Source: Nitrospiraceae bacterium
Lineage (GTDB): Bacteria > Nitrospirota > Thermodesulfovibrionia > UBA6902
Direction: 5' to 3'
DNA: 32,080 nt
Assembly (NCBI GenBank): GCA_003599505.1
Contig: QZKO01000072.1
Span: 1 to 32,080, forward strand
Position numbers and translations under genes: made by a program. The notes under the pieces were generated by a model. That model had not been told where the DNA came from. It made no database searches and was given only the letters and a program-made list of their open reading frames with translations. Positions 27,723-30,259 of this stretch are shown here, in pieces (position 1 is the first letter of the stretch; each line of letters opens with the position of its first letter).

Positions 27723-28283
27723 ATGAAGAAAATATCAAACCAGAGAGGATTCACACTCGTTGAGCTGGCGATAGTGATGGTCATTATCGGCCTGCTGATA
27801 GGGGCTGTCCTGAAAGGGCAGGCGATGATCGACGACGCTAAGCAAAAAAGGTTGCTGAACGATATCCAGGGGATAAGCGCCGCTTATTTTACCTATTATG
27901 ACAGGTACAACGCTATACCCGGGGACGATCTGAGCGCCCATGGTTGGGGGACTGCTGTCGGCAACGGGAGCGGTTATATCAATGGCGCTACAGAGCCGAC
28001 AGCGGCATGGCAGGTCTTAAGATATGCAGGGCTTCTCTCGGGCGACCCGGCTACGAGCGGCGCGGCAGCGCAGCCAAGGCACCCATTCGGTGGGACATAT
28101 GGTTTCGGCAGCGCAGCTTTTGGAGCGTTAGGGACAAGAAACTATATTACCATGGTTACAGTGCCGGGCAGTGTTGCCGAGTCGATTGATATCAAATATG
28201 ATGACGGAATATATAACACGGGTACGGTGCGCGGCTCCGCAGCTTATACCACAGCAACTGTTACTCTGCAATATCTCTTATAA
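27723..28283 (+). CDS. Type IV pilin / prepilin-like protein
   Basis: From the ATG at 27723 (strong AAGGAGG upstream) the protein has 186 residues. The leader MKKISNQRG is followed by the cleavage and methylation site FTLVELAIVMVIIGLLIGAV, with Phe+1 and the assembly residue Glu+5. After the long N-terminal helix comes YFTYYDRYNAIPGDD, a segment seen in many minor prepilins. The C-terminal globular part (about residues 65-186) is rich in Gly, Ala and Thr and ends in TATVTLQYLL. No Cys pair is present in that part. It may be a minor pilin or the major one; copy number cannot be told. A hairpin terminator follows 40 nt later, so it is likely a single-gene transcript. PilD at 404-1189 is the expected processing enzyme. 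Confidence 0.92.
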   Translation: MKKISNQRGFTLVELAIVMVIIGLLIGAVLKGQAMIDDAKQKRLLNDIQGISAAYFTYYDRYNAIPGDDLSAHGWGTAVGNGSGYINGATEPTAAWQVLRYAGLLSGDPATSGAAAQPRHPFGGTYGFGSAAFGALGTRNYITMVTVPGSVAESIDIKYDDGIYNTGTVRGSAAYTTATVTLQYLL

Positions 28284-28382: not shown

Positions 28383-28574
28383 ATGTACAGGGCATTGTTC
28401 ATAAGGCTTACCGGAATAATCGGGCTGGCGCTTGTGCTGTGCGGATATTACCTGTTCTGGATCTCGCCTGATACGGAAATAAGCGAAGCGATAACCAGGA
28501 CAAGGGCCGCGATTGTTGTCAATTTATCAGGGAATATAATGATAGTGTATTATCTTTTCAAGAGGCAGTCGTAG
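28383..28574 (+). CDS. Small two-TM membrane protein, unknown function
   Basis: This 63-residue frame reads MYRALFIRLTGIIGLALVL, then a polar stretch with SPDTEISEAITRTRAA, then a second hydrophobic segment ending YYLFKRQS. Two membrane helices (about 7-27 and 41-60) with positive ends form a coherent inner-membrane hairpin protein. I recognise no family. It sits between a terminator and the large pilin gene, and no strong ribosome binding site is visible. Its stop codon (28572-28574) touches the first base of the inverted-repeat element. Coherent membrane topology argues for a real gene, but short length keeps confidence moderate. Confidence 0.5.
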   Translation: MYRALFIRLTGIIGLALVLCGYYLFWISPDTEISEAITRTRAAIVVNLSGNIMIVYYLFKRQS

Positions 28575-28665
28575 GGGGTCAGGTCTTGATATTTGACAAA
28601 ATACATTGCAAAGCAAATACTGATAAGGCCAACACATTATTTGTCAAATGTCAAGACCTGACCCC
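28575..28665. repeat. 91-bp inverted-repeat element (REP/MITE-like) at the 5' end of the large pilin gene
   Basis: The left arm (28575-28600) starts GGGGTCAGGTCTTGA and the right arm (28640-28665) is its reverse complement over 26 nt with one mismatch. A 39-nt loop separates them. As RNA this forms a very stable stem. The element begins at the stop codon of the small membrane protein and ends 5 nt before the codons for the pilin cleavage-site Gly. The size and the long terminal inverted repeats fit a REP or miniature transposable element; no transposase is present in the window. Confidence 0.8.
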
Positions 28666-30259
28666 TCCCGGCTTTACCCTTGTTGAACTCGCAATTGTTC
28701 TTGTAATCGTCGGTTTATTAATCGGCATGGGGGCGTCACTGATAGGGCCGCTGACAAGGCGGGCCAAGCTGAATGAGACGAGAAACACGGTAAAAGAGGT
28801 CTACGAAACCATAAGCGGATTCGCTACCGCCAATAAAAGACTCCCTGCCTTGCTGACGGACCTTAGCGCAAAGACAAGAGATTCTTACAATAACATCCTG
28901 CTGTATTATCCTGCTCCAGGTCTGACCGCCTCTAATCTATGCACAACGCAGGGCACATATCTTACTCTCAACGATATGGGCTCAAACAAGACAAATGTCG
29001 CGTTTGTCATTTTAAGCCAGGGGGAGAACAGATGCAACCAGACAGGGACAGGGTCGCCGTTTGCTATAGCGGATACGGATGTAAGTACTGCGTGTACGGA
29101 CGGAAGCGGCAGCCCCGGTTATGACGACATAGTGATGTATATGGATATAAATACCCTCAGGCAGCAGATGTGCAATCCTTTCAGGATAGTGACGGACAGC
29201 CTTCCCACCGGGACAGAGGAGCTCGCTTATCCGTCAACAACCCTGGATGCTACGGACGGGACGCCTCAGATTCCGCCTTCTTATAATACATGGGCGGTGT
29301 CTTCCGGCGCGCTGCCGGCAGGGTTAACCTTGTCGAATCTGGGCGTCATTTCAGGGACCCCGACTGCCGGAGGGAGTTTTGGTTTTACTGTTTCCGTGTC
29401 TGATCTGGAGGGCAGGCCGGCGACTAAGAATTTTTCGTTGACAATAAACCCGAATGACCCGAGGATAACCACGGAGTTTCTGAATTACGGAACTGTTAAT
29501 GAGGCATATCCCAGCGCTACATTAAGCGCCACTGGAGGGAGGTCACCATACACATGGGCTGTTACATCAGGAAGCCTGCCTGCGGGTCTGGCCTTGAACG
29601 CAGGCACAGGTGAGATCTCCGGGACCCCAACAACAGCGGGGACGTCCTCATTTACCGTAAGAGTTACAGACGCCGGCTCGCGGACCGCGTCAAAGACGCT
29701 TTCCATTGCAATTAACCCCGCCGGTACCGGCGGAGGGGGAGGCGGCGGCAGCGCCCCGACGTGCAGTGTGTCCGCAAACCCTGATATTATTCCGTCAGGC
29801 GGCACTACAACACTAAACTTCAGTATTTCAAACGGACCTGCTTTTGCAAGCTTTTCGCCCCAAAACGGCACGTGTACTACTTTCTCCGGCTCGACAGGCG
29901 ACTCCTGTACAACAGGAGCGCTTTCTTCAAGGACTACTTATGTCCTTTCAGTAAGCAATGCAGACGGCAGCGGGTCATGCTCAACTACGGTATTCGTAGG
30001 ACGTACCGCATACCGGGTTTGGAATAATACAGGTTCGCGCCGGGATTTTATCGTAGACGGCACTTGCAGACGGATAAACAACGGAGGGGAAATTACGACG
30101 GCTGCGTTACGGCTCAATTCAGGTGAAACCATGTATCGGTATTCGACAAACAACGGGACCTGCGGCGGCGGGGCGCAGGCCCAGTTGAGTTACAATTCAG
30201 CGGTCTCCGCCGACAGTGATAATGATGGACTGGTGAATTTCACGGGAACAGACAGGTAG
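28586..30259 (+). CDS. Large modular pilin-like protein with tandem putative-Ig domains
   Basis: The 557-residue frame has a prepilin signature PPG-FTLVELAIVLVIVGLLIG (cleavage after G29, Glu+5 present) and a pilin-like region to about 200 with Cys residues. Two He_PIG-type putative-Ig repeats follow (about 206-288 and 296-378), each with LPAGL...G.ISGTPT. Then come a run of seven Gly (382-388), a Cys-containing Ig-like domain (about 391-472) and a C-terminal domain ending with DSDNDG (543-548), a calcium-loop-like motif. This looks like a surface pilin or tip adhesin. The only canonical start is TTG at 28586, inside the left arm of the inverted repeat; a CTG at 28658 would give a leader of MTPPG. 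The 28-residue leader is atypical. Confidence 0.82.
   Translation: MIFDKIHCKANTDKANTLFVKCQDLTPPGFTLVELAIVLVIVGLLIGMGASLIGPLTRRAKLNETRNTVKEVYETISGFATANKRLPALLTDLSAKTRDSYNNILLYYPAPGLTASNLCTTQGTYLTLNDMGSNKTNVAFVILSQGENRCNQTGTGSPFAIADTDVSTACTDGSGSPGYDDIVMYMDINTLRQQMCNPFRIVTDSLPTGTEELAYPSTTLDATDGTPQIPPSYNTWAVSSGALPAGLTLSNLGVISGTPTAGGSFGFTVSVSDLEGRPATKNFSLTINPNDPRITTEFLNYGTVNEAYPSATLSATGGRSPYTWAVTSGSLPAGLALNAGTGEISGTPTTAGTSSFTVRVTDAGSRTASKTLSIAINPAGTGGGGGGGSAPTCSVSANPDIIPSGGTTTLNFSISNGPAFASFSPQNGTCTTFSGSTGDSCTTGALSSRTTYVLSVSNADGSGSCSTTVFVGRTAYRVWNNTGSRRDFIVDGTCRRINNGGEITTAALRLNSGETMYRYSTNNGTCGGGAQAQLSYNSAVSADSDNDGLVNFTGTDR

Follow-up and report, generated by a model that had tools for sequence, protein, structure and literature searches.

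The stretch analyzed here (hereafter the window) comprises the 32,080 nucleotides of contig QZKO01000072.1 from the Nitrospiraceae bacterium assembly GCA_003599505.1, and the feature in question is a 91-bp palindromic element that lies within it between a small open reading frame (ORF) and a pilin-type gene (Table 1). A first-pass annotation of the window had described an inverted repeat with 26-bp arms and one mismatch, and this is what we find, with two 26-nt arms that are complementary at 25 of 26 positions (96%) around a spacer of 39 nt and that form the sole inverted repeat detected between positions 28400 and 28900. The outer motif GGGGTCAG is present at both ends of the element, and the exact 15-mer end occurs within the window at the two arms only. 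The element had also been placed exactly between the stop codon of the small ORF and the codons of the pilin cleavage site. This is accurate on the left side, where the first element base (28575) directly follows the TAG at 28572-28574, and needs a small correction on the right, where four host bases (TCCC) separate the last element base (28665) from the codon of the Gly at position -1 (28670-28672).

The reading frame of the pilin begins inside the element. As stated in the first-pass annotation, the TTG at 28586 is the only canonical in-frame start ahead of the mature part, the next ATG, GTG or TTG being an ATG that lies 61 nt past the element and within the mature part. The predicted N-terminus consists of the element-encoded leader LIFDKIHCKANTDKANTLFVKCQDLTP followed by PG/FTLVELAIV (the slash marks the predicted cleavage site). 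The proposal that all 28 leader residues derive from the element holds for 26 full codons; the 27th takes only two bases from it, and the rest is host sequence. The same adjustment applies to the initiation signals said to fall entirely in the left arm, as this is true of the TTG and of most of the Shine-Dalgarno-like (SD) sequence, the first two bases of which belong to the upstream stop codon. A single one of the six frames of the element is free of stop codons, and it is the frame that the pilin uses. The G/F(T/S)LxE cleavage and methylation motif with its hydrophobic helix is found in the pilin and is conserved in 14 orthologues, the frame runs for 557 codons without a stop or frameshift, and Pfam and NCBIfam profiles recognize putative Ig domains in the product, while the scores for the pilin signature are close to the cut-offs (TIGR02532, 19.8 bits vs. 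16.3; N_methyl, 19.3 bits for the protein and 23.5 in the genome search vs. 21.2). Initiation at another element codon, for instance the in-frame CTG at 28658 that would give a minimal leader (LTPPG) and leave the remaining element untranslated, seems highly improbable, since the CTG has no SD sequence upstream and also sits within the stem, and since the nearby ATG (28647) lies in another frame; even a start at the CTG would still be supplied by the element.

Table 1. Features of the pilin locus in the window, with the basis of each call or a remark.
Feature	Positions	Strand	Basis or remark
Palindromic terminal inverted repeat (TIR) element, 91 bp, non-autonomous, TIRYT/RAYT kind	28575..28665	.	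Repeat search and shared ends elsewhere
Left arm, GGGGTCAGGTCTTGATATTTGACAAA	28575..28600	+	Holds TTG start
Right arm, TTTGTCAAATGTCAAGACCTGACCCC	28640..28665	+	Holds ATG 28647, out of frame with pilin
SD-like AGGGGG	28573..28578	+	7 nt 5' of TTG
Pilin-type ORF, 557 aa, TTG start in left arm	28586..30259	+	ORF list; N_methyl and He_PIG matches
Predicted prepilin peptidase site, Gly(-1) 28670-28672 / Phe(+1) 28673-28675	28670..28675	+	G/FTLVE conserved in orthologues
Predicted peptides of pilin product: LIFDKIHCKANTDK, ANTLFVK; mature N-terminus FTLVELAIV			
Upstream ORF, 63 aa, stop TAG 28572-28574	28383..28574	+	Position kept in relatives, stop mostly overlapping pilin start
Neighboring pilin, ordinary 9-residue leader MKKISNQRG/FTLVE, in-window control	27723..28283	+	Sequence, ORF list, profile match

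What the element displaced can be judged from the empty site in relatives. Orthologues of the pilin are present in most congeners; none carries the 91-bp element, and their leaders are quite different from that of the source genome, in agreement with the earlier suggestion that an original leader was replaced. The small ORF ends in TCGTGA with a GTG overlapping the stop in G003, G006, G008, and G026, and the corresponding junction reads TCTTGA (with TTG) in G002 and TCATGA (with ATG) in G004, while in the source genome it reads TCGTAG and the element follows immediately. Because most relatives have an overlapping stop and start without the element where the source has TAG and then the element, the junction has been replaced by the element, with loss of the overlapping start and the old leader. 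In more distant relatives the pilin leaders are short and ordinary (MKHASKNK/G, MNTEK/G). A joining of unrelated flanks through a repeat during metagenome assembly could be imagined for a genome of 87 contigs with related repeats at some contig ends, yet it is extremely unlikely here, as both flanks fit the order of the congeners (small ORF, then pilin), the frame is intact, and a chimera would not restore synteny. The 63-aa ORF itself (28383-28574) is membrane-like, has no family assigned, and keeps its place 5' of the pilin in most relatives. At the G004 locus (L099, contig C30) the open frame of the pilin extends over only 84 aa (the match covers profile positions 1-53) and is possibly broken, and the locus sequence ends soon after.

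The element is not alone in the source genome (G000), a metagenome-assembled genome (MAG) of 2.64 Mb in which copies were counted by pattern search. The 15-mer end is found there exactly as two palindromes, that of the window and one of 52 bp belonging to the same family at the junction of trpF and cls (C12:21189-21240, equivalent to L030:3190-3241). In seven of eight relatives trpF and cls overlap through ATGA. In the source genome the end of trpF, the cls ATG, and roughly 20-25 cls codons are gone and the 52-bp element stands in their place, which provides trpF with another C-terminus and stop codon and cls with another start. An open frame for cls crosses the element from a TTG that sits at element base 12 in this copy as in the 91-bp one, and the exit frame is identical in both, with cls reading ...VKFQDLTP/SRIESILG and the pilin ...VKCQDLTP/PGFTLVE (slashes here mark the element border). 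One further TTG, located inside trpF and 29 nt 5' of the element, might be an alternative start for cls. Looser relatives of the element (GGGGTCAGGGCTTGA... and GGGGTCAGGTTTTAAACCTGACCCC) occur at other sites of this genome, several of them close to contig ends. The search for further copies of the arms that the first-pass annotation had called for thus yields a second palindrome and looser relatives, and no relative has the same leader. On C14, C44, and C53, copies of the sister repeat GGGGTCAGGGCTTGA are found no more than about 130 nt from a contig end, and the C14 and C44 ends have flanking sequence in common, a pattern that assembly breaks at repeats would produce.

The family to which the element belongs can be recognized from transposase genes with similar ends. 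The source genome has four Y1_Tnp genes, two of which are provided with TIRs. The gene on C44 is flanked by a perfect 23-bp inverted repeat starting TGGGGTCAGGTCT, the outer 12 nt of which are common with the element, and its product passes the NCBI cut-off of REP_Tyr_transpos (84.3 vs. 80), so that the tie to REP-associated tyrosine transposases (RAYT; REP, repetitive extragenic palindromic) suspected earlier is borne out. The gene on C5 is flanked by a perfect 29-bp inverted repeat, CGGTGTCAGGTCTTTGA..., and the whole (L028:1340-2336, inverted repeat CGGTGTCAGGTCTTTGATTTTAGAATTTT) is a second TIR element with a transposase in this genome. Ends of the element type (GGGGTCAGGTCTTGACATTTGACA...) bracket Y1_Tnp genes at L183 (an Elusimicrobia MAG, 1084 bp) and L188 (1031 bp), ends of the sister type bracket one at L070, and several phyla have short palindromes (about 50-100 bp) with element-type ends. 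At the C-terminus of these transposases a helix-turn-helix (HTH) domain is matched by Bac_DnaA_C with 36.7 bits at L183 (over the cut-off) and 25 bits on C44 (under it) and weakly by HTH_23 at L070; the profile search found no DnaA-type or similar HTH in the L188 transposase.

The outer motif GGGGWSAS has been described for the TIRs of TIRYT transposases (PMC3733652), and TIRYT was later placed mainly in TnpA_REP subclass 2.1, together with HTH domains of the DnaA type or a similar one (PMC6006769). Because the outer end of the 91-bp element fits GGGGWSAS and the same ends surround Y1 transposase genes, we classify it, from its sequence, as a non-autonomous TIR palindrome of the known TIRYT/RAYT (HUH tyrosine transposase) kind. 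The likeness to the TIRs of TIRtrons, as these two sources present them, includes GGGGWSAS and long inverted repeats bracketing Y1 HUH genes, self-complementary TIRs dispersed singly or in pairs in some cases, and, for some of the transposases, an HTH that is DnaA-like. The element also resembles the GTAG-tagged REP/RAYT systems in that palindromic repeats are tied to Y1 tyrosine transposases. Membership of the GTAG-REP group was considered and rejected, as the GTAG at 28571-28574 is the end of the host ORF and adjoins the window copy only, the flanks of the other copies being different.

Donation of start codons is not confined to the source genome. We read out all 52 distinct right-arm exits (GTCAAGACCTGACCCC) that had enough flank in the fetched loci, and 13 of them lead into an ORF longer than 150 aa, in the MSRPDP frame in ten cases, in the QDLTP frame in three, and never in the third frame, which has a TGA (10 of 13 against one third, p = 0.0016, uncorrected for relatedness). 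In several genes the right-arm ATG is the sole start before the conserved domain, which gives the MSRPDP N-terminus. AlaS of G236 begins MSRPDP/IREKFLRFFEKK, with position 2 of TIGR00344 at residue 7, and no other full-length match turned up in its MAG; IspG of the same genome starts at the right-arm ATG, with position 5 of TIGR00612 at residue 7. Further starts of this type are those of ComEC (G163), a TPR protein (G236), a class IV aminotransferase (G230), and a secreted protein with a lipoprotein-like signal (G231). Since AlaS and IspG are in general essential, starts borne by the element very likely work. Many copies in G236 are solo half-elements, TAAACTCTAATGTCAAGACCTGACCCC, with a TAA and, 9 nt on, an ATG in the same frame. 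Such half-elements stand at gene starts of this Elusimicrobia MAG, including those of alaS and ispG (L224, L246, L249, L232, L248, L252, and L254). Era of G234 was set aside as a clean case, as an ATG just outside the left end of the element could also start the ORF, which still reads across the element. HolB (L232) and the genes at L215, L191, and L253 were not counted either, since each has its own ATG at or just past the element end.

Taken with the locus itself, these observations lead us to favor, as the likelier account though by no means a secure one, that a mobile hairpin took over the start of the pilin gene and supplies both its start codon and a removable leader. Between the 63-aa ORF and the pilin, a TIR element has taken the place of the former junction and removed the old start and leader. 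With one element frame open, the ORF begins at the element TTG and runs through 26 element codons into ...PPG/FTLVE. Initiation at the sequestered TTG would probably occur by coupling to the upstream ORF, with a ribosome that terminates at the TAG (28572-28574) unwinding the foot of the stem and re-initiating 11 nt on; this would keep the coupled translation that relatives may have through their overlapping NTGA junctions. The intact cleavage motif suggests that prepilin peptidase would then cut off the element-encoded leader and leave the mature pilin unchanged. Of the three outcomes named in the first-pass annotation, the new prepilin leader is the best reading; silencing is not supported, as the frame is intact and the only open element frame is the one in use.

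It is also important to consider the structure in which the start is held. The region folds as RNA at -56.3 kcal/mol, compared to -27.9 ± 3.7 for shuffled sequences (z = -7.6, 0 of 200), and the predicted fold pairs every base of both the SD (28574-28578) and the TTG, with an unpaired probability of about 0, so that free initiation is expected to be poor and structure-dependent translation of the pilin is plausible. This pairing weighs against a takeover of the start, as do the weakness of TTG as a start codon, the presence of the element-bearing pilin allele in one genome only, the prevalence of right-arm ATG rather than left-arm TTG starts among the cases in other genomes, and the failure to find a transposase with TTGATATTTGACA-type ends among the four Y1_Tnp genes of the source genome, where those on C44 and C5 represent sister types. 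The same buried start and weak TTG would fit a gene that the insertion silenced or strongly lowered and that is heading to decay, and some relatives are without the pilin gene while G004 has a short open frame at the locus. We nevertheless consider this unlikely, as 557 codons without a stop or frameshift and the use of the sole open element frame speak against it, the same arrangement is found at cls and, in other genomes, at essential genes, and dN on the source pilin branch is not raised (0.068 for the N-terminal part vs. 0.107 for G008; 0.075 vs. 0.089 overall). With dS saturated or undefined, dN alone was compared, the source branch is long, and an insertion recent enough could still show no decay. 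Effects on mRNA are known for REP-type elements, and a very stable stem that holds the SD and the start would also suit an element that is not just a tolerated insertion but is kept mainly as a cis-regulatory hairpin between the two genes, either a translation switch or an mRNA stabilizer. This seems more doubtful still, as the element is unconserved and the leader differs in each congener, which leaves no regulatory role common to the orthologues.

The takeover of the pilin start can be placed in a wider proposal, to which we give about even chances, that TIRYT-type TIR repeats act as portable start (at times stop-start) cassettes that settle at coupled junctions and are kept for providing the gene that follows, even where it is essential, with a functional start and a new N-terminus, with cleaved pilin leaders an especially open landing site. 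TIRs bring ready starts, TTG in the left arm and ATG in many right arms, and may persist at the 5' ends of genes because they take over initiation. The positions usually given for REP and TIR repeats are downstream of genes or between them, and what they are credited with is stop codons and effects on mRNA. If the proposal holds, one repeat family would supply the beginnings of proteins in several phyla, including an aminoacyl-tRNA synthetase and IspG, and a selfish repeat would thereby have entered the coding sequence at the start of core genes. The repeat would explain odd common N-termini (MSRPDP..., ...CQDLTP...) that could otherwise pass as homology, and it would offer an easy way to test to what extent a coupled gene in bacteria relies on its own start region.

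Parts of this picture have precedents. REP elements are known to supply TAG stop codons to flanking ORFs (PMC3733652); the GTAG-tagged REPs thus supply stops, whereas the present element supplies starts. For TIRtrons, start-codon donation is not described in the portions of PMC3733652 and PMC6006769 consulted. Rickettsia palindromic elements (RPE) are mobile palindromes that insert in frame and become parts of proteins (PMC10969869). The likeness to RPE is by description only, as an RPE forms an internal segment of an ORF, whereas the present element takes the place of the 5' end and supplies a start codon of its own; it was not assigned to this group, since it stands between two genes with the old start replaced rather than in frame within one ORF. 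The open-licence literature yielded no report of start-codon donation by REP, RAYT, miniature inverted-repeat transposable elements (MITE), or insertion sequences (IS), subscription papers being mostly outside the scope of the search. What appears to be new here is that a TIR family donates start codons repeatedly, while the kind of element, in-frame palindromes, and stops supplied by REPs are known.

In this genus the prepilin leaders accumulate repeats of many kinds, and they seem to be sites where protein sequence is nearly free for replacement. Short repeats lie within the coding leader of 43 of 111 pilin-like genes from eight genomes, and 9-mer repeats cover 28.8% of leader bases, compared to 3.4% for the 100 nt 5' of the start and 0.5% for the 100 nt that open the mature part; since starts were called automatically and orthologues were counted apart, the size of this effect is approximate, and one entry is a false pilin (FtsH). 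Among 81 non-pilin control ORFs of the source genome, repeats are found in 3 of 80 upstream windows and in 3 of 81 windows of the first 100 nt. Eight of ten orthologues of the source pilin have leader repeats of several kinds, the other two being the source pilin, with its palindrome, and that of G026. Weak sequence constraint on a leader that is cleaved off explains this load, and an active process may contribute. The short repeats, dispersed or tandem, are seen in leaders of pilin genes at 28586-28669 of the window and at L140-L179 (G000, G002, G003, G006-G009, and G026), with examples such as ...RFKIQDSRFKIQDS..., ...YTLHATRYTLHATR..., and ...NFKFQISNSRR.
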